In this document: positions 322 to 48,698 of the stretch, piece by piece
Layout of the letters: each line of letters starts with the position of its first letter
How positions within the stretch are numbered: position 1 is the first letter of the stretch
From: a virus
Length of the DNA stretch: 64,000 nt
Reading direction: 5' to 3' (one strand)
Virus record (IMG/VR): IMGVR_UViG_3300042197_003251
Span: 1 to 64,000 of that record
The notes under the pieces: model-generated
Told to the model about the DNA's origin: nothing
Databases searched by the model: none
What the model saw: only the letters and a program-made list of their open reading frames with translations
Made by a program: the position numbers and the translations under genes

Positions 322-717
322 TTATCTTATTAAAATTACATATCCGTTATTCTCTTTTGAAACACCTTGAGCATCCTTATAGAAGATAACCCAATTATAA
401 ACACCATCTTCAGAATAATAACCAGTTCCGTTATCGCCGTTCCAACCTCTATAAAGGTCATTTGTTTCAAAAAAAGGATTTCCCCATTTATCAAATATTA
501 ACAATCTTGGTTCATATATTCCAATCCCACTTACTCTAAAAATATCATTAACTCCATCATTATCAGGTGTAAAACTATTTGGAGCATATACTCTTGTACA
601 AGCGATTGTATCTGGTGGTGAACTAATATAATCAATAGTTACGTTTCCACTACATTGCGAATAACTTACAAATGAAGTTATAACTAGAAATAAACTTAAT
701 ATATATTTTTTAAACAT
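322..717 (-). CDS. Secreted protein made of a T9SS type B sorting domain
   Basis: The predicted product is 131 aa. Residues 1-21 form a signal peptide (basic MFKK, hydrophobic core, SYSQ cleavage region). Residues about 44-131 match the gliding-motility-associated C-terminal (CHU_C/TIGR04131) domain: APNSFTPDNDGVNDIF, then IFDKWGNPFFET, GWNG, GVYNW and a final GYVILIR. In Bacteroidota this domain sends cargo through the type IX secretion system to the cell surface. Here almost nothing precedes it, so the domain itself seems to be the product. I start at 717 rather than the longer upstream frame because that places the signal peptide at the N-terminus; the start overlaps the end of the upstream gene by 8 nt. 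Inference: it may modify the host surface or occupy the secretion machinery. Confidence 0.85.
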   Translation of the reverse strand: MFKKYILSLFLVITSFVSYSQCSGNVTIDYISSPPDTIACTRVYAPNSFTPDNDGVNDIFRVSGIGIYEPRLLIFDKWGNPFFETNDLYRGWNGDNGTGYYSEDGVYNWVIFYKDAQGVSKENNGYVILIR

Positions 718-2527: not shown

Positions 2528-3022
2528 TTAGTCCCACCAACCATCTATGTGTTTTGCAATAAACTTATATGCCTCTTTCTTATCTTTCATATAGTCCTTA
2601 CGGGCTTGCTTCATCGCTTCTCTAAACTCCTTTGAGTATTCTTCTTTATGTTCGGGAGTTTTCACATTTTCGTGTTCAATTTCCAAATACTTGGAGTCAG
2701 TTCCGTCATTAGTTGGAATCCAATTAAACTTACTTTTACCCCATTTTTTTTCTATCTCTTCTTGAGCGGGGTTCTCATAGAATTCCCAACTATCACGGGT
2801 CTTTTGTAATCTGTCGATTGCTTCTTGGATTTCACCCGCAACTTCAACAGCACTCGCAATATGAGTATCTTCGGACAAGAAAAAATCTCTTGTGTGCTCA
2901 AGTTTTTTAATTAGGATTTCATTTATGAAATGATAATCATAATCTTCATCTTTCCAAATTGTAGGAAGCCAACGATAAAGATTTTTTAATCTTTTAAAAA
3001 AACGTTTAATTGCGTATTTCAT
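2528..3022 (-). CDS. Phage hypothetical protein, FFKRLKNLYRWLP type
   Basis: The protein begins MKYAIKRFFKRLKNLYRWLP and continues with WKDEDYDYHFINEIL, a pattern seen in hypothetical proteins of many large phages. An in-frame ATG 24 bases upstream (3046) is possible, but 3022 starts the conserved part. It is rich in charged residues and Trp, with probable helices through EIQEAIDRLQKTRDSWEFYE. Function is unknown. Confidence 0.75.
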   Translation of the reverse strand: MKYAIKRFFKRLKNLYRWLPTIWKDEDYDYHFINEILIKKLEHTRDFFLSEDTHIASAVEVAGEIQEAIDRLQKTRDSWEFYENPAQEEIEKKWGKSKFNWIPTNDGTDSKYLEIEHENVKTPEHKEEYSKEFREAMKQARKDYMKDKKEAYKFIAKHIDGWWD

Positions 3023-3145
3023 ATTTTTAAAGCTTTCCCCAACCATTTTTATATTGTGTTTTATCTATTCCTTCGGATACAATATTACAAAAGTTTCTTA
3101 TGCGTATCCAAATTTTTTTTAATCTATATTTGAAATTAATTTTTT

Positions 3146-3394
3146 TCATACGATTAGTTTATCAGGTATAACTCCGTGTTCTTCAAGTAAAGAATATAAC
3201 TCTTTATAAACTGCCATTACTCCTTTTTCGTAATCTTCAAAATTTGTACCTTCTTCAACACTATTAAGAATTTTTTTACGGGAGTTAAGTGTTAATTCCC
3301 AAAGAACAAGAGCCATATCAGTTGCCTTTAAACATCTTTCGTGTTCTATTCGGTCATCATAATCGGTAAGGTCAAATTTTAATTTTGCTTTCAT
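3146..3394 (-). CDS. Hypothetical protein, 82 aa
   Basis: The product begins MKAKLKFDLTDYDDRIEHERC and looks mainly helical and acidic. Similar short proteins occur in phages, but I cannot name a family. It lies between two better supported minus-strand genes. Confidence 0.65.
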   Translation of the reverse strand: MKAKLKFDLTDYDDRIEHERCLKATDMALVLWELTLNSRKKILNSVEEGTNFEDYEKGVMAVYKELYSLLEEHGVIPDKLIV

Positions 3395-3415
3395 AGTGTA
3401 AAATTATTTTAATAT

Positions 3416-3817
3416 TTAACTCATAAATGGCACAACCCATGTCATATTTTCTTGCGGTAAATGGTTTACATGTCTATAATTCCAAATTAATCCACAAATA
3501 TTTGCGCTTCCTATAGGATTAGCGGAATGTACCTTAACTTCCACAACAGGTTGTCCTTCAATCCATTTTTCAACTAACCATTTGGCACAATCCATTCCGG
3601 TTTTCTCAAGTATATTGCTATAGTCCAACTTATAGTTTTTGTGAACATTATTATACCACTCCCTCATTGCGGTGTCGCCTAAATCATGGTCTAAAGAAAT
3701 TAATTCAATGTTCTCAAGTCCAATTTCAGTAACTTTTTTTACGAACTCATCATAACTGCGCACAACAATCCAACTATTGTCAACTGGTGTACGAACATCG
3801 TCTAAATAAATTTTCAT
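3416..3817 (-). CDS. Cyclic-phosphate processing receiver (cREC) domain protein
   Basis: The 133-aa protein has the receiver-like order MKIYLDDVRTP, WIVVRSYDEF, ISLDHDLGD and VKVHSANPIG, matching the cREC_REC family. The family is predicted to act in RNA repair or signalling with 2',3'-cyclic phosphates. Here it may belong to an RNA-repair response against host tRNA nucleases, but no ligase is visible nearby. The ATG sits four bases after a TATATTTG element. Confidence 0.8.
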   Translation of the reverse strand: MKIYLDDVRTPVDNSWIVVRSYDEFVKKVTEIGLENIELISLDHDLGDTAMREWYNNVHKNYKLDYSNILEKTGMDCAKWLVEKWIEGQPVVEVKVHSANPIGSANICGLIWNYRHVNHLPQENMTWVVPFMS

Positions 3818-3821
3818 AGTG

Positions 3822-3829
3822 CAAATATA
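3822..3829 (-). promoter_or_regulatory. TATATTTG promoter, leaderless
   Basis: On the minus strand TATATTTG, then CACT, then the ATG at 3817. Same spacing as at 1341, 7625, 8354, 13024, 22443, 24007 and 24645. Confidence 0.7.
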
Positions 3830-3844
3830 GTAAACATATTAAAC

Positions 3845-4216
3845 TTAATCAACTAATTTCTTTTTTGATTTAATTTCTGTAATATTTGTGACTTCAGTAC
3901 TTCTAATACCAAGAGCTTTACATATAATTAAAACCTCATTTCGCATATTATACATTAGTTCATTTTTTATTTTATAATTTCGTTCCTTACCATACGATAT
4001 TTTACTTCTCCAACGAAAACTATTCTCATTAATTTTTTTGAATTTAACTTTAAAATCGGCCTGTATTCCTCCCCAAGAATAAAAAGTAAAATCTACTTTA
4101 TTGATAAAAACTTCCACTTCACCAAACCCTCCTTTAATTTTAAATGCAGGTAAAGATTTCAATTTATCTGATGCAAATTTGCAATACTTTTCTTTATTGA
4201 TTTCATTAGTTTTCAT
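3845..4216 (-). CDS. Hypothetical protein, 123 aa
   Basis: Start at ATG 4216 (MKTNEINKEKYCKFA). A longer frame would begin with a GTG that overlaps the promoter element at 4240-4247, so it is rejected. The sequence is basic with alternating beta-like segments (EVEVFINKVDFTFYSW, ADFKVKFKKI). No family is recognised. Confidence 0.7.
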   Translation of the reverse strand: MKTNEINKEKYCKFASDKLKSLPAFKIKGGFGEVEVFINKVDFTFYSWGGIQADFKVKFKKINENSFRWRSKISYGKERNYKIKNELMYNMRNEVLIICKALGIRSTEVTNITEIKSKKKLVD

Positions 4217-4239
4217 AGGGGTGTTGTGTAATTGTACCA

Positions 4240-4247
4240 CAAATATA
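4240..4247 (-). promoter_or_regulatory. TATATTTG promoter with short leader
   Basis: TATATTTG on the minus strand lies 23 bases upstream of the ATG at 4216, giving a leader of about 15-17 nt rather than a leaderless start. Confidence 0.6.
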
Positions 4248-4264
4248 CGGCAAAATTTGTATTA

Positions 4265-4624
4265 TCAAAAATTAATTGACTTAATTTCAATTTCAAAATT
4301 GTCTTTTACAAACTTATTTAAAGGTTCTTCCCACAAATGGCCAAACATACTATTTAAATGTCTTTCAAATTCCATTTCTAATCTAATAATTGGACTTTTT
4401 TCTTTCATATTTAATCCTTCTTGAGTATCATCACTCCAATATTCCGGCATGTAAATAACAAATAACTCTTCATATTCTGAATTTGATAATTCATAAATAC
4501 CTTCATACCCTCCAATTCCACCTTCAACTAACCCATATTCATCAAGGTCAATATAGTCCTCAATATAGTTGTATATTCGTTGGAATAACATTAAATGTTG
4601 TCTATTTGTTATTTTGTACTCCAT
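4265..4624 (-). CDS. ITxxQ-start phage protein, 119 aa
   Basis: It begins MEYKITNRQHLMLFQRIYNYIEDYID, the same layout as the next two genes and the gene at 9732-10247: a short basic start, (I/V)(T/S)xxQ, then a helix. The body is acidic and aromatic. The three adjacent genes look like diverged paralogues. Related start sequences are common in large marine-type phages and may be a head-targeting signal, although this copy lacks the Glu of the (I/L)xE step. Confidence 0.7.
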   Translation of the reverse strand: MEYKITNRQHLMLFQRIYNYIEDYIDLDEYGLVEGGIGGYEGIYELSNSEYEELFVIYMPEYWSDDTQEGLNMKEKSPIIRLEMEFERHLNSMFGHLWEEPLNKFVKDNFEIEIKSINF

Positions 4625-4978: not shown

Positions 4979-5359
4979 TTAATAATTTGCTGGTTTTTGT
5001 CTATAAGGATAAATTGACGCTTCATCAATATCAACATCATATGTTTCGCTAACCCAATCCGAAATAATATCAATAACTTTAGTTTCTCTTATCTTAATAG
5101 TTTTACGGAGTTCATCAACTATATCAGGGTGAATGTGTATCATTCCAACACCATAATGAGGATTATCGTCATCGTCTGTTCCTGGCCCATACCAAAAATA
5201 TGTAATCATATTTTTTCCATAATTGTCGTGCAAATTAAGTGTATAAGCATCAGGATTATAATTACATTCTTCTTTTTTAGTATTTGATTTAGAAAACATA
5301 CCATCCAAATATTTGTAAATTATTTGGTGTAATTGGTTTTTTGTAATTACATATCTCAT
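4979..5359 (-). CDS. ITxxQ-start phage protein, 126 aa
   Basis: It begins MRYVITKNQLHQIIYKYLDGMF. A TATTTATA element lies three bases before the ATG. The second half contains YGVGMIHIHPDIVDELRK and an acidic C-terminus. First gene of the three-paralogue block; function unknown. Confidence 0.7.
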   Translation of the reverse strand: MRYVITKNQLHQIIYKYLDGMFSKSNTKKEECNYNPDAYTLNLHDNYGKNMITYFWYGPGTDDDDNPHYGVGMIHIHPDIVDELRKTIKIRETKVIDIISDWVSETYDVDIDEASIYPYRQKPANY

Positions 5360-8888: not shown

Positions 8889-9728
8889 ATGGTTAATCAA
8901 TTAATTAAAGAAGAATTAAATAGGATTAAAACTTTGATGGGTCTAATCACAGAAGAAGAAAAAAATGGAACATTTAAAGTTGTTTTCAGAACAGATAATG
9001 GAATAGATTTGGGAGCTTGTATTGGAATTGCTCACGGTGGAACTATTGATTTACCTGAAGAAGTAATTAAAAGAATTAATAATATAGATAATCTACATTT
9101 CATTGCGGAAGGAGCTGCGGCGAAGAACCCCGAACTTGAGCCAGGAATGATGAAATTTATTGATGAGCATTTTTCTGGTTATAAAATTGAAGATAAATCT
9201 TGGGACGAAATAACAGAAGAGCAAGGTTTGGGTGTTGGTAATCCAAAATATAATATTAATTATGTTTTTATGCAACACAAATACAACAATTACATAGACG
9301 ATTATTCGTATTCAGGTGGTACAATGTTGGATGCATTAGCAAAAACCACAAGACCTGAATTTCCTCCGAATTCGCCAACCGAACCAGAAGAAAGAAAAAA
9401 ATGGTTAAAATATCATATGGAACAATCAGGATTTCTTGAAAATCTTGAACAACCTTATAATAGAGAAAAATTATATGATTTATTAACAGAAATGGAAGAA
9501 ACTGTTTATCCTGAAGGACAGCAAGTTCCGAACAAAAAAACTTATTTTGGTGTCATGCAACAAAGTATTGAAGATGAAAGAAATAAAACAATATACGATT
9601 TAATGGAAAACGGTGGAGTGTCAATTGCAGGAGAAGGACATGTAGATGAATTAAAACAACAATTTCCTGATTTGGAATTCCTACCGCAAAAAAATGAAAA
9701 GACAGACTTTGTTGGTCAGCATAAATGA
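8889..9728 (+). CDS. Tagged cargo-type protein, 279 aa
   Basis: The N-terminus MVNQLIKEELNRIKTLMGL continues ITEEEK, giving two (I/L)xE steps, and the ELNRIKTLMG piece resembles the C-terminus of the 51042-52427 protein. Near the C-terminus, SIAGEGHVDELKQQFP is weakly reminiscent of GxGH segments in TraB/Tiki-type proteins, which I do not regard as proof. The gene is on the opposite strand to its neighbours and sits between duplicated copies of a neighbour's 3' end, so it looks inserted. Confidence 0.75.
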   Translation: MVNQLIKEELNRIKTLMGLITEEEKNGTFKVVFRTDNGIDLGACIGIAHGGTIDLPEEVIKRINNIDNLHFIAEGAAAKNPELEPGMMKFIDEHFSGYKIEDKSWDEITEEQGLGVGNPKYNINYVFMQHKYNNYIDDYSYSGGTMLDALAKTTRPEFPPNSPTEPEERKKWLKYHMEQSGFLENLEQPYNREKLYDLLTEMEETVYPEGQQVPNKKTYFGVMQQSIEDERNKTIYDLMENGGVSIAGEGHVDELKQQFPDLEFLPQKNEKTDFVGQHK

Positions 9729-9731
9729 AGA

Positions 9732-10247
9732 TTACATATAGTCAACACTTATGTGTCCGATTGTAACTCCCAGATTAGAATAAAATGAAAAGAATTTATT
9801 AAAAATTATTTCATTAACTTCACTATTAATTTCCCAACCAAATTTATCATTTGCCAAAGCTTCTTCCAAAGATATGGTTGGTTCATTATCATCAAATATT
9901 AAGGTTACAGTTCCCCCTTTTTTTACTCTAATGTACAGATAAACTTCTTCATTTACAACAACTTCATCCAATATAATTTTAAAATTATACCCCCCATCCA
10001 CAATATCAAAAGTTTCACCTTCATCTTTTTTCAAATACTGAATAAACTTTTCATTCCCTCCGAACCATTCAATCATCAATTCCAAAAAATAAGGTTCAAT
10101 TTCATACGCCGTTTTAGAGTCAAGTCCAATTAGTTTATACATTTGTCTAGATAAACTTGGTCCATTAACATTCCAATATTTAAAAAGAATTGGTTTAAAT
10201 TTATCAACAATTTTATTAAATTGATTTTCAGTAATTATAAATTTCAT
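9732..10247 (-). CDS. ITENQ-start phage protein, 171 aa
   Basis: Start at ATG 10247: MKFIITENQFNKIVDKFKPI. A longer frame adds a short Leu-rich start that overlaps the upstream TATTTATT element and is rejected. The (I)TE step matches the tag found in other proteins of the window. The body is acidic, with a beta-rich centre (NFKIILDEVVVNEEVYLYIRV). Its 3' end is duplicated at 8799-8864. Confidence 0.72.
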   Translation of the reverse strand: MKFIITENQFNKIVDKFKPILFKYWNVNGPSLSRQMYKLIGLDSKTAYEIEPYFLELMIEWFGGNEKFIQYLKKDEGETFDIVDGGYNFKIILDEVVVNEEVYLYIRVKKGGTVTLIFDDNEPTISLEEALANDKFGWEINSEVNEIIFNKFFSFYSNLGVTIGHISVDYM

Positions 10248-10280
10248 TAACAATAAATATAACAAAAGTATTTATGACAT

Positions 10281-18179: not shown

Positions 18180-18911
18180 TTACTTTTCTATTCTTGGGGG
18201 TTTAATTTTTTTTGTTTTTAAAACTTTTAATACCAAATCTCCTGTTCCCCATGTTTTCAGGTCAGAACTACATCCCGCAATTTTTTCAGCCCCAACGTCA
18301 TTTCTTAAACCATTAATAATACAAGGATATCTTTTATTTAAAAGTGTTTTAATTGTCGCCTCAATTCCAATATCTTTTGATGAATAATTTTTAACTCCAA
18401 CTTTATTGTAGTCAGATATTCTTGGGTCATCTTTCATGCCTTGTGTGGTGTTAAATGGGTTGTTTTTTGCCTTAGCTCCTTCTGCCTGTCTCCAAGCATA
18501 AAGAAATTTAAAATTTTCATCCGTGTATGGAGCATCAATTCCGTCAAGTATTTTTTTGTAAAAATCTTTGTCTGCAACTCCCTCTACATCAAATTTTGTT
18601 TCAACTTCTTTTTCTGAACTTTTTTCTCCCCTTGAAGTTTTTTCTTTTTTATAACCGACTTCTTTTTCTAATTCATCTCTTTCACTGGAAGTTAATTTTT
18701 TTAATTTATCTAACACACCTTCTTTATCATCCGAATCATCCGAACCTGTTATTTTGTTTATCATATCAATTGCCTTTCCACCTTTATCTTTTATAAAATT
18801 ATAAAGGTCAACAAACCAAAGCCCTTCATTAAGATTTTTATCTTCATTAATTTGATATAAATTTCTTATTTGTTTTTTTTCTTCTTCTGATATGATAATT
18901 CTTTTGCCCAT
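18180..18911 (-). CDS. Tagged muramidase/transglycosylase-like lysin
   Basis: The 243-aa protein starts with the tag MGKRIIISEEEKKQIRNLYQ, then a charged linker, then a lysozyme-like domain: WRQAEGAKAKNNPFNTTQG, GVKNYSSKDIGIEATIKTLL and NDVGAEKI. AEG...NNPxNTT is typical of phage virion-associated peptidoglycan hydrolases. The tag suggests a virion component rather than the free endolysin. TATTTATAAATA upstream supports late expression. Confidence 0.78.
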   Translation of the reverse strand: MGKRIIISEEEKKQIRNLYQINEDKNLNEGLWFVDLYNFIKDKGGKAIDMINKITGSDDSDDKEGVLDKLKKLTSSERDELEKEVGYKKEKTSRGEKSSEKEVETKFDVEGVADKDFYKKILDGIDAPYTDENFKFLYAWRQAEGAKAKNNPFNTTQGMKDDPRISDYNKVGVKNYSSKDIGIEATIKTLLNKRYPCIINGLRNDVGAEKIAGCSSDLKTWGTGDLVLKVLKTKKIKPPRIEK

Positions 18912-18985: not shown

Positions 18986-20866
18986 TTATTTTGCCGAAAC
19001 TTCCTCAAAATCCACATCCTGGACTTCAGAGTTTGCATCACCTGTCATATTTGAAGCCATATCTTGAGCTTGTTGATACATCTTCATTGAAATATCTTGG
19101 AAGGTCTTATTTGTTTTTTCAACACATTCTTTGATTTTTTCAATGTTCTTGTCGGCGTTTGCCTTTTTAAGTTCATCAAGACTTTCATTAATTTGGGTTT
19201 TTTCTTCTTCTGAAATTTTATCTTCCAAATCTTTTAATGATTTTTCAACTTGGAATACAGTTGCGTCCCCAGTGTTAATTGTTTCAGCTTCTTCTTTTGC
19301 CAATTTATCTGATTCAGCATTTGCTTCAGCCTCTTGTTTCATCTTTTCAATCTCTTCTTTTGATAGTCCTGAAGATGATTCAATTCGGATATTTTGTTTT
19401 TTGTTTGTTCCCTTATCAAGAGCTGATACATTTATAATACCATTTGCATCAATATCAAACGATACTTCAATTTGCGGAACACCTCTCATTGATGGTGGAA
19501 TTCCATCAAGGTGGAACCTTCCGATTGTTCTATTGTCTTTCGCCATTGACCTTTCTCCCTGAAGAACGTGAATTTCAACTGATGGTTGATTATCAACTGC
19601 GGTTGAAAATACTTGGGAAGCTTTGGTTGGAATTGTTGTGTTTGCATTTATAAGTTTTGTAAACACTCCGCCCATCGTTTCAATTCCAAGTGATAATGGT
19701 GTTACGTCAAGAAGAAGAACATCTGTTACATCACCAGCAAGAACCCCTCCTTGAATTGCCGCTCCAAGAGCAACAACTTCATCAGGATTAACTCCTTTTG
19801 ATGGTTCTTTTCCGAAGAATTTCTTAACCGCATCTTGAATTGCCGGAATACGAGTTGAACCTCCAACCAAAATAATCTCATCAATATCGCTGATTTTTAG
19901 ATTTGCATTTGCCAATGCTTTTTTACAAGGTTCAATAGTTCTTTGAACTAATGGGTCAACAAGTTGCTCAAATTTAGCCTTTGTTAATGTTCTAACCAAG
20001 TGTTTTGGAACACCATCAACTGGCATAATGTAAGGAAGATTAATTTCTGTTGATTGTGAAGATGATAATTCAATCTTTGCTTTTTCTGCCCCTTCACGAA
20101 GACGCTGAAGAGCCATTGAATCTTGTGTTAAATCAATACCATTTTCATCTTTAAATTCTGAAACAAGCCAATCAATAATTGACTGGTCAAAGTCATCACC
20201 ACCAAGATGTGTATCACCATCGGTTGATAATACCTCAAACACACCATCACCTAAATCCAAAATGGATACATCGTGAGTTCCACCACCACAGTCAAATACA
20301 ACAATTTTTGAATCTTTTCCTTTCTTGTCAAGTCCATACGCAAGTGCTGCTGCTGTTGGTTCATTAATGATACGTTTTACTGTAAGTCCCGCAATTTCAC
20401 CAGCTTCTTTTGTTGCCTGTCTTTGGGCATCGTTAAAGTAGGCCGGTACTGTAATAACCGCCTCTGTAACTTCTTGTCCCAAATAATCTTCTGCGGTTTG
20501 TTTCATCTTTTGAAGAACAATTGCCGAAATTTCTTGGGGGCTATACTTTTTGTCATCAATTTGAACTCTTGGTGTATTACCCTCACCTTTAACTACTTTA
20601 TAAGGAACTCGTTTTGCTTCCTTTTTTGTTTCATCATAAGATGACCCCATAAAACGTTTAATTGAATTAACAGTTTTATCAGGATTTGTGACCGCTTGTC
20701 TTTTTGCTGGGTCACCAATCTTTCTTTCACCACCTTTTGTAAATCCTACGATTGAAGGGGTGGTTCTTTTTCCTTCACTGTTCGCAATAACTTTAGGTTC
20801 TCCGTTTTCCATAACGGCTACACATGAATTTGTAGTTCCTAAATCTACACCAATAATTTTTCCCAT
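18986..20866 (-). CDS. dnaK: Full-length Hsp70 chaperone DnaK
   Basis: The 626-aa protein has [19 protein letters not shown] at the N-terminus, ATPase motifs [18 protein letters not shown] and [10 protein letters not shown], the linker region [15 protein letters not shown], a full substrate domain and a lid ending [13 protein letters not shown] as in Bacteroidota. The usual GGGTFDVS carries His instead of Phe here. A DnaJ gene is at 47772. A complete Hsp70 is rare in phages; it could assist capsid or replication complex assembly. No GrpE is seen. Confidence 0.97.
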
Positions 20867-22460: not shown

Positions 22461-23324
22461 TTAAATTAAATTAACCAAATCTTTAAATTGTTGTTTGTTG
22501 TCTTTAATCCATTTTAACATATCTGGACGAATTTTGTTTGAGTATGGTCCAAATATTTTTGAAATTTCATTTTCTTCTTGATTAATTGTTAAAAATTGGT
22601 CATATTCTTTTTGTGAAATTCTTGGAACCACAATATCAAATGTGTTTCCCTGTGTTCTAACCGCCGAACTTTTAATTCTAATTTGATGGCCTCCCTTTTG
22701 TTTTGGTGCCGAGCAATTTGAAGCTCTTGAAAAAACTTCAACAAATTGTTCTTTTGTAAAATAATGACTTCTTATTCTGTCAGGAAGTTTTGTTGAAACA
22801 CAAACAACATCGGCAATTATATTTTGTAGTATTAGTTTTTTAATGTCAACAATTTCTGGGTCTTCAATTAAAAATAAATTTGTTTCATTGTAGTCTGACA
22901 TTACCTTATTTACAATTTGATTTACGTTTTCTCCCATCTTTGATAAAACTGTTTTGTATCCACCAATAACTGGACTTTCTCCATCATCTTCAATATACTT
23001 TTGTTCAACCGTACCAATATCAACTCTGTAGTCCCAACTTCCTGATTTATCCTTGTTCAATTCTCCATTATAAATTCCACACATAAGTCCTTCAAAAGAA
23101 TGCCCTCTAATTTCTTTATATTTAACAATCCTGTTAATATAATCTTTCATTCTCATCTTATTAACCGTATCCAACTGGTTTAGGTCAGCAGTTTTTCCAA
23201 ATTCAAATGACATTCCATGTACCATCATAATTCTTTTAATAACTTCAGTTGCCTCTTGTTTAACAATAGGAATTGGGTTATATAAATAAAATTTGTTCTT
23301 ATCTTCTTTAATTACTTTTTTCAT
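22461..23324 (-). CDS. Tagged protein, possible PD-(D/E)xK nuclease
   Basis: The 287-aa protein begins MKKVIKEDKNKFYLYNP, with a VIKED step. RGHSFEGLMCGIYNGEL followed by SWDYRVDIGTVEQKYIED has the spacing of a restriction-endonuclease-like core (Glu...Asp...ExK), but is not a certain match. It overlaps the next gene by four bases and forms an operon with it. Packaged nuclease is an inference. Confidence 0.6.
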   Translation of the reverse strand: MKKVIKEDKNKFYLYNPIPIVKQEATEVIKRIMMVHGMSFEFGKTADLNQLDTVNKMRMKDYINRIVKYKEIRGHSFEGLMCGIYNGELNKDKSGSWDYRVDIGTVEQKYIEDDGESPVIGGYKTVLSKMGENVNQIVNKVMSDYNETNLFLIEDPEIVDIKKLILQNIIADVVCVSTKLPDRIRSHYFTKEQFVEVFSRASNCSAPKQKGGHQIRIKSSAVRTQGNTFDIVVPRISQKEYDQFLTINQEENEISKIFGPYSNKIRPDMLKWIKDNKQQFKDLVNLI

Positions 23325-23632
23325 TTTCCAATAACTAATTCATTATAATTAAGCGTGTCCATTCCTTTCATGTCATCTGTTATTTCGTCATACATATAAG
23401 CTTTAACAACACTTGTAATTGATTGTTCGGCTTGAGCAATTTTGCTTTCCATCCAATCATCAAGTTCCTCATCTTCGGGCATTTCTTCCCACATTTTATA
23501 TGCAAGAGTTGCAATAATGAATAATTGTTGTTTTGCCATATAATTTCCATCCTTCCCCTCCTTAACTTCACCTTTGGTGATTGTTTCTTGGAGTTTCTTT
23601 AATTGGGATTCACTTAATATAAATTTTGCCAT
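23321..23632 (-). CDS. ILSES-tagged small protein, 103 aa
   Basis: It begins MAKFILSESQLKKLQETITK, close to the start of the 9732-10247 protein (KFIITENQFNKI). The rest is an acidic helical domain. A CTATTTATATAAAAA element precedes it, a late-type promoter. It probably heads an operon with the 22461-23324 gene. Confidence 0.75.
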   Translation of the reverse strand: MAKFILSESQLKKLQETITKGEVKEGKDGNYMAKQQLFIIATLAYKMWEEMPEDEELDDWMESKIAQAEQSITSVVKAYMYDEITDDMKGMDTLNYNELVIGK

Positions 23633-47771: not shown

Positions 47772-48698
47772 CTACAATCTGGTGTGTTTAACATATAATC
47801 TGACATACAAGTCCCCATTCTCATTTGGGTAACCTTTTCCTTTAACTTTAAGTGGAACGCTTGTGTCCACAGTTTGTGGCATCTTAATTTTTAGTTCTCC
47901 GTGTGGATGCGGAATTTTAATCTCATCCAAATTCAAATCATTTATTGATAAGAAATTATTAAAAACCAAATCACCGGCGACTTTTTCAAAACCATCTTGT
48001 TGATTAACATTAATTTTGAAAATCATATCTCCAAACATTCCATTTGCAAAATCTCCCATAGATTGCGCTCTAACCAATTGTCCATCAGAAACTCCAACTG
48101 GTAAATTCATGCTTATTGTTTGATGTTCATCAATTCTTCCATCACCTCCGCAATGATTGCAAGTTGATTTAAAATGAAACCCTCTTCCACCACATGCCCC
48201 ACAAGCTGTTTGAATTATGTTTTGCATAAAATGATTTCCAACTCTTTGCATAATCCGGCCAGAACCTCCACAGTTTGAGCAGGTTTGTCTTTCCCCTCCT
48301 TGCCCACCACAAGGGTCACAATTTATTTTTCTTGTAAAATTAACATCAATTTTCTTTCCCAAAAATGAATCAACCGCTCCAACCTGAATGTCCATAACTC
48401 TGTCTGGTGCTCTTCTTTGTTGTTGTCCCCCAAAGATATTTGAAAATATGTCAAACGGATTTCCGCCCCCACCCATATCAAAACCAAACTGACTAAAAGG
48501 ATTGTTGTTTCTATTATCATATTCATTTTTTTTCTGTTCGTCTGACAGAGTTGAATAAGCTTCATTAATTTTTTTAAATACGTTTTCGTCCCCACCTTTA
48601 TCAGGATGAAATTCTTTTGATTTATTTCTAAACGCTTTTTTTATTTCATCTTGTGTTGCGGTTTCCTGAACCCCAAGAATATCATAATATGTTTCCAA
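47772..48698 (-). CDS. dnaJ: DnaJ co-chaperone
   Basis: The 308-aa protein has a J domain with HPDKGGDENVFKKINEAY, a short G/F region, four CxxCxGxG zinc repeats (CDPCGGQG, CSNCGGSG, CGACGGRG, CNHCGGDG) and a C-terminal substrate domain shorter than in cellular type I DnaJ. It would stimulate the phage DnaK (18986-20866) or host DnaK. It is far from dnaK in the genome. Confidence 0.95.
   Translation of the reverse strand: METYYDILGVQETATQDEIKKAFRNKSKEFHPDKGGDENVFKKINEAYSTLSDEQKKNEYDNRNNNPFSQFGFDMGGGGNPFDIFSNIFGGQQQRRAPDRVMDIQVGAVDSFLGKKIDVNFTRKINCDPCGGQGGERQTCSNCGGSGRIMQRVGNHFMQNIIQTACGACGGRGFHFKSTCNHCGGDGRIDEHQTISMNLPVGVSDGQLVRAQSMGDFANGMFGDMIFKINVNQQDGFEKVAGDLVFNNFLSINDLNLDEIKIPHPHGELKIKMPQTVDTSVPLKVKGKGYPNENGDLYVRLYVKHTRL

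Follow-up and report, generated by a model that had tools for sequence, protein, structure and literature searches.

A phage gene for little more than a signal peptide and a T9SS type B sorting domain

The bare sorting gene and its surroundings

The stretch of DNA that we analyzed here (the window) comprises the first 64 kb of a virus record of 81,017 bases. About 320 bp from the contig end lies a small gene whose 131-aa product, P0001, consists of a signal peptide, a short spacer, and a sorting domain for the type IX secretion system (T9SS), a system that to our knowledge occurs only in Bacteroidota. The initial annotation had placed an open reading frame at 322–717. The frame indeed exists, but it is read on the minus strand, from 717 to 322, as the plus strand is full of stops over these positions.

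All three parts of the gene thus lie on the minus strand. The N-terminus (MFKKYILSLFLVITSFVSYSQ; 655–717), which ends in YSQ, resembles on inspection a typical flavobacterial Sec signal peptide, and similar signal peptides are found at the syntenic locus of related phages, both on a bare protein (L137) and on full-length ones (L125 and L133). A linker of about 23 residues (CSGNVTIDYISSPPDTIACTRVY; residues 22–44; 586–654) leads to the CHU_C domain, or type B C-terminal domain (CTD), which occupies 322–585 together with the stop codon and runs from PNSFTPDNDGVND through IFDKWGN, WNGD, and GVYNW to GYVILIR. Residues 45–129 match Pfam CHU_C (PF13585; E=7e-15, 55.3 bits against a cut-off of 27), and residues 45–131 match NCBIfam TIGR04131, “T9SS type B sorting domain” (37.9 bits against a cut-off of 35). 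Since both scores exceed the curated cut-offs, the match is not a matter of chance. The sorting domain forms the extreme C-terminus of P0001, and the initial description of a signal peptide and a full CHU_C domain ending in GYVILIR, with little between them, is borne out. In the alignment, all invariant CTD columns are retained.

Structure prediction, proposed at the outset as a check, likewise yields a CTD fold. In the AlphaFold2 model (64-row alignment) the mean pLDDT is 83, with residues 41–130 at 93–96 and most others at 50–70, and neither the model nor a profile search revealed a second domain. The closest predicted viral structures, taken from BFVD, are phage proteins named “Gliding motility-associated, C-terminal domain.” One of them, A0A6J5L8Z9 (199 aa), is 41% identical to P0001 (E=4e-11), but these proteins are longer (187–199 aa) and carry an extra domain; we found no functional study of them in the literature. 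Matches in the PDB are Ig/Fn3-like domains, with the T9SS component PorZ at rank 9.

The neighboring genes are encoded on the minus strand as well. Downstream, a gene truncated by the contig end (1–309) is 79–81% identical to the gene that follows the CTD gene for a 602-aa protein in L123 and L126; because the contig ends so close to the P0001 gene, the remainder of the downstream neighborhood is cut off. Upstream, a 97-aa frame (710–1003) overlaps the start of the bare gene and has a homolog in the L127/L128 locus, and its C-terminus, QPTSVPEK, recurs in L125 and L133 on the small gene immediately upstream of the one for the CTD protein. Further on lie a lipoprotein-like gene (1365–1757; syntenic with L126:1082–1423), a small membrane protein (1744–1971; syntenic with L126:577–810), a NusG-like antiterminator (1987–2508), and a conserved gene (2528–3046). 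The last two serve as synteny anchors, the former to L126 (74%, partial) and G003 (71%) and the latter to L125, L133, and L137 (55–57%).

The wider genome points to large phages. Viral contigs with relatives of the window's sigma factor are numerous; several measure 250–300 kb, and the jumbo-phage records among them reach 297 kb. The NusG of the window has homologs that are 55% and 45% identical in the huge uncultured phages LR756502 (642 kb) and LR745206 (635 kb). Homologs of DnaK and DnaJ (18986–20866 and 47772–48698) are found alongside NusG and the sigma factor.

That the gene comes from bacterial DNA wrongly assigned to a virus, or from faulty assembly, is very improbable. The CHU_C domain belongs to hosts, bacteria do have short type B genes (L249, L282, and L284), and the P0001 gene lies near a contig end, all of which would suit such an error. 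Its neighbors, on the other hand, are phage genes syntenic with jumbo-phage records, a terminase is present on 14 of the 27 CHU_C-bearing viral contigs (the one with the bare protein L151 included), and other bare forms lie within long records (G003, 294 kb; G011, 270 kb; W01, 642 kb; W02, 635 kb). P0001 can thus be taken as phage-encoded, as had been proposed.

Full-length relatives and other bare forms

A viral search with the P0001 sequence alone found no close relative, and an alignment profile was required to find relatives. An alignment made up of bare proteins only offered no stretch with enough conservation for scanning. The best viral matches to its CTD in the profile search (51–54% identical) are full-length proteins of 513–604 aa, which combine a P0001-like signal peptide and sorting domain with a beta-sandwich and about three Ig-like domains (L123–L127 and L133). 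Their genes occupy the same position. The window and L126 share the order NusG, small membrane protein, lipoprotein, CTD gene (a 602-aa protein in L126), and then the 81%-identical gene, and in L123 a 602-aa CTD protein is followed by the same next gene as in the window (79%). In L124, L125, and L133, CTD proteins of 513–602 aa adjoin thyA, and in L125 and L133, homologs of the window genes at 2528–3046 and 3146–3394 lie upstream. P0001 is the positional ortholog of these proteins. Since related phages encode a protein of 513–604 aa with a similar signal peptide and CTD at this locus, bare P0001 is a shortened version of it, and the notion of a bare domain as an isolated invention finds no support.

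What P0001 lacks are some 400–470 passenger residues, namely the N-terminal beta-sandwich and the Ig-like part, and a search of the rest of the 81 kb record gave no trace of them. For L125, structure prediction yields a beta-sandwich, about three Ig-like domains, and the CTD, with a domain packing that is unreliable (pTM 0.38); the best PDB match of this model is the grappling-hook protein GhpA of Aureispira. Several full-length relatives also have Cys-rich repeats (GCTDPxACNYDPxAxCDDGSC), which are likewise absent from P0001. The end of the linker matches the pre-CTD residues of the full-length relatives (shuffle p=0.02). Its start weakly resembles the start of their first domain, and at a shuffle p=0.08 we dropped the idea that the linker is a provable remnant of the passenger start. 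The near-identical full-length proteins of L127 and L128 differ in that one has lost 54 aa in frame close to its N-terminus, a sign that the full-length gene may be prone to losing internal segments.

CHU_C was found in 11 of the 50 records searched, both in large proteins (about 600–1675 aa) and in bare ones (111–133 aa, depending on the start codon). At least four other phages have bare forms at the P0001 locus; in the thyA neighborhood these are L137 (113 aa), L151 (116 aa), G003/G004 (111 aa), and G045 (133 aa). In a tree of the CTDs, P0001, L137, and L151 are nested in a clade (98/96) whose remaining members are mostly full length, with L137 as sister to full-length L125 (99/84). Going by the well-supported branches, the bare state must have changed at least three times. 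The passenger has therefore probably been lost more than once, and repeated in-frame loss is a simpler account than regain by recombination.

It is quite possible that such a gene is a deletion remnant, i.e., a leftover signal peptide and CTD with little or no function that is slowly decaying. Besides the positional orthology with full-length genes, the rates of change are in keeping with this. Terminal branches measure 0.47–0.69 for the bare forms against 0.04–0.36 for most full-length ones, where part of each bare branch may predate the deletion, and pairwise dN/dS is about 0.17–0.34 for pairs with P0001 against 0.05–0.13 for full-length pairs, with dS near saturation. A locus of the huge phages, flanked by a HAD-type gene and by a small gene that is conserved (L002:1330–6342 compared with L092:1363–1743), encodes a CHU_C protein of 1670 aa in W01 and a bare CTD of 126 aa in W02. 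Some bare CTDs (L091 and L092; those of W01 and W02) have lost conserved motifs; such loss and the long bare branches are what would be expected if constraint were relaxed.

Decay alone fits less well with the fact that all eight bare genes have intact frames and signal peptides, that the repeated deletions each preserve both ends in frame, and that P0001 itself retains every invariant CTD residue. In a neutral simulation, the probability that a reading frame of P0001 length acquires no stop is 0.011 at 0.2 and 0.001 at 0.45 substitutions per site, so that open frames are unlikely under neutrality after this amount of change. From these comparisons of sequences, we read the constraint on P0001 as weakened and not absent, which would fit a changed function and a slow remnant alike.

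CHU_C proteins of phages and bacteria, and their partners

Short CHU_C proteins (≤210 aa) account for 22 of 46 phage proteins against 1 of 78 bacterial ones after dereplication (Fisher p=1e-10), counted among the best 80 viral and best 80 bacterial loci found with the same profile and ranked by similarity to P0001, with the caveat that IMG/VR may contain some bacterial contigs. A second bacterial sample, from ten genomes, has six frames of ≤200 aa among the 150 CHU_C matches listed, three of these six at contig ends, and a median frame of 984 aa. Two candidates for reassignment were considered: MT839536, listed as a phage match, looks bacterial and has a uvrA-like neighbor, and the single short bacterial match, L249, was rejected as a misbinned phage since its neighbors are purA, a STAS-domain gene, and a Fur-like gene.

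The short type B genes of bacteria (L282:3799–5147, L284:3549–4979, and L249:3998–4426) resemble P0001 in encoding small proteins with a signal peptide and CHU_C. Unlike P0001, they are chromosomal, and they are rare among bacterial CHU_C proteins. In L282 (136 aa) and L284 (167 aa), a PorP/SprF-type gene directly follows, whereas L249 (142 aa) sits near purA and the Fur-like gene.

Such partners matter because type B CTDs require PorP/SprF-like shuttles and remain anchored on them at the cell surface (PMC12618676, PMC9143113). The cognate PorP/SprF gene usually adjoins that of its type B substrate, but this is not obligatory, and orphan substrates exist (PMC12618676). Among the viral loci examined, no PorP/SprF partner was found near the short phage CTD genes. 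The 81 kb record of P0001 itself gave no match to PorP/SprF (PF11751), so P0001 would depend on a shuttle of the host. One of the 14 relatives searched, G011 (270 kb), does encode a PorP/SprF-like shuttle (L120:1438–2427, minus strand; PF11751, E=3e-46). Its gene and that of a large CHU_C protein are about 7 kb apart, and the same genome also has a bare CTD. A search of further records gave 0 of 37 and, likewise, no positive-control match.

Other genes do accompany the short phage CHU_C loci. In 18 of 23 groups of these loci, the neighbors, mostly directly upstream, are secreted Ig/PKD-type proteins without a CTD. An I-x-H-[N/D] tail ends 41 of 208 signal-bearing viral open reading frames, 1 of 745 other viral ones, and 0 of 146 signal-bearing bacterial ones; the distinct tails number 30. 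Among loci L122–L201 (e.g., L187:2535–3122, 3141–3707, and 3710–4270, as well as L188 and L195), one or more CTD-less Ig/PKD genes precede a CHU_C protein of 187–199 aa, and several single-chain relatives have DITHN, the same letters as the tail, at a domain junction. To judge from these sequences, the tailed proteins and the CHU_C protein together look like a split adhesin, whose pieces would share a common terminal tag.

By extension, a bare or short CHU_C protein might serve as a carrier in trans that takes separate, CTD-less secreted partners across the outer membrane, much like the last subunit of a split adhesin. The neighbors in 18 of the 23 groups, the many I-x-H-[N/D] endings among them, and the DITHN junction would agree with this, as would G003, where a secreted PKD protein ending in IEHD is encoded downstream of the bare CTD gene. 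For P0001 we nevertheless hold such a role to be improbable: no partner of this kind was recognized in the 81 kb of its phage (relatives reach about 290 kb), and in the split operons the CTD is preceded by an Ig domain, which the bare forms lack. Next to the PKD protein, the same stretch of G003 (L107:14914–19584) encodes two more secreted proteins, a DNA/RNA non-specific endonuclease (PF01223) and a subtilase (PF00082); all three are phage-encoded.

A possible role at the host shuttle

Export of P0001 to the host surface via the host T9SS is the natural inference. SprB of Flavobacterium johnsoniae and PG1035 of Porphyromonas gingivalis share with P0001 a Sec signal and a C-terminal type B CTD, and docking on a PorP/SprF-like barrel is expected for all three. 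Unlike P0001, SprB (669 kDa) and PG1035 (about 50 kDa) are bacterial and have passengers, whereas P0001 has neither a passenger nor a linked shuttle gene. PG1035 has been speculated to cap PorP (PMC9143113); we rejected it as a bare homolog, since it runs at about 50 kDa.

The initial annotation envisaged that a displayed bare domain might mask receptors or block the attachment enzyme, leading to superinfection exclusion. Receptor block, an arrest of gliding, and superinfection exclusion are each conceivable, and the present comparisons favor none of them over the others. T9SS and gliding proteins are required for, or linked to, phage adsorption (PMC13288928, PMC7345892), mutations in gliding and T9SS genes can confer phage resistance (PMC13288928), and a role in superinfection was proposed earlier for T9SS cargo exported by a phage (PMC7468147). 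All the same, we regard this role as distinctly unlikely. P0001 has no ligand-binding part left, and type B substrates bypass the PorU/PorV route (PMC9143113). Occupation of the attachment enzyme in particular is disfavored, as type B CTD proteins need neither PorU nor PorV, have no A-LPS linkage, and stay bound to the shuttle (PMC9143113, PMC12618676).

The explanation that we tentatively prefer, without calling it probable, is that P0001 is a cargo-less type B substrate that arose by in-frame deletion of the passenger and acts as a decoy or cap for the shuttle. PorP/SprF shuttles are scarce, stoichiometric (one per substrate), and apparently not recycled (PMC12618676, PMC9143113). The passenger, namely one beta-sandwich and about three Ig-like domains, would have been deleted in frame from a phage surface adhesin. 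Going by the literature, the host Sec system would carry the product to the periplasm, and the T9SS translocon would hand it to a PorP/SprF-like shuttle barrel of the host, on which the type B CTD would stay docked. Each copy may in this way consume one scarce, single-use shuttle and, because it does so, leave fewer host type B adhesins (SprB-like) at the surface. SprB-like adhesins are linked to gliding and phage adsorption, and the decoy would thin them. Occupying scarce single-use shuttles, and thereby thinning the surface adhesins of the host, is as a hypothesis the likeliest function of P0001.

The size of the domain tempers this proposal. Five conserved motifs (A–E) are required for secretion by type B CTDs, and the known minimal functional type B CTDs measure 150–235 aa (PMC12618676), against only about 110 aa for mature P0001. 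Given that the known minimal signals are longer, export of a stub of about 90–110 residues may be poor or may fail altogether, and for the same reason the decoy is a hypothesis roughly as likely as the remnant. The broader claim that jumbo phages of Bacteroidota make dominant-negative shuttle decoys by stripping their own T9SS adhesin down to its export and docking signals, and that these decoys exhaust the host shuttles and would thereby remove gliding adhesins and the receptors of rival phages from the surface, is rather unlikely.

Phage use of the T9SS has so far been reported in passing, for the type A cargo of Cryophage and for T9SS-domain proteins near crAss-BACON genes (PMC6949934). The Cryophage cargo (PMC7468147) is, like P0001, phage-encoded and uses the host T9SS, but it consists of enzymes and a PA14 protein that bear type A domains, whereas P0001 is type B and cargo-less. 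Our literature search found no description of phage type B CTDs or of bare ones. To this the present analysis adds that, among the sampled loci, short type B proteins with little cargo are frequent in phages and scarce in bacteria, that a full-length phage adhesin exists at the P0001 locus, and that one phage has its own PorP/SprF-like shuttle. If the decoy hypothesis is true, a virus would here be making an inhibitor of the surface display that a secretion system confined to Bacteroidota carries out, and P0001 would be a natural minimal reagent for studying the size limit of type B signals and the consumption of shuttles.

The type A sorting domain of the T9SS (PF18962) is likewise present in large phages of this set (L114–L119, from W01, W02, G017, and G023). 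Finally, many unrelated small proteins of these phages have common N-terminal stretches such as M(K/R)(Y/F)(I/L)I(T/S)E(S/N)Q or RIKTLMG; they are found in the window at 4979–5359, 8889–9728, 9732–10265, 18180–18911, and 23321–23632, as well as in L107 and L108.
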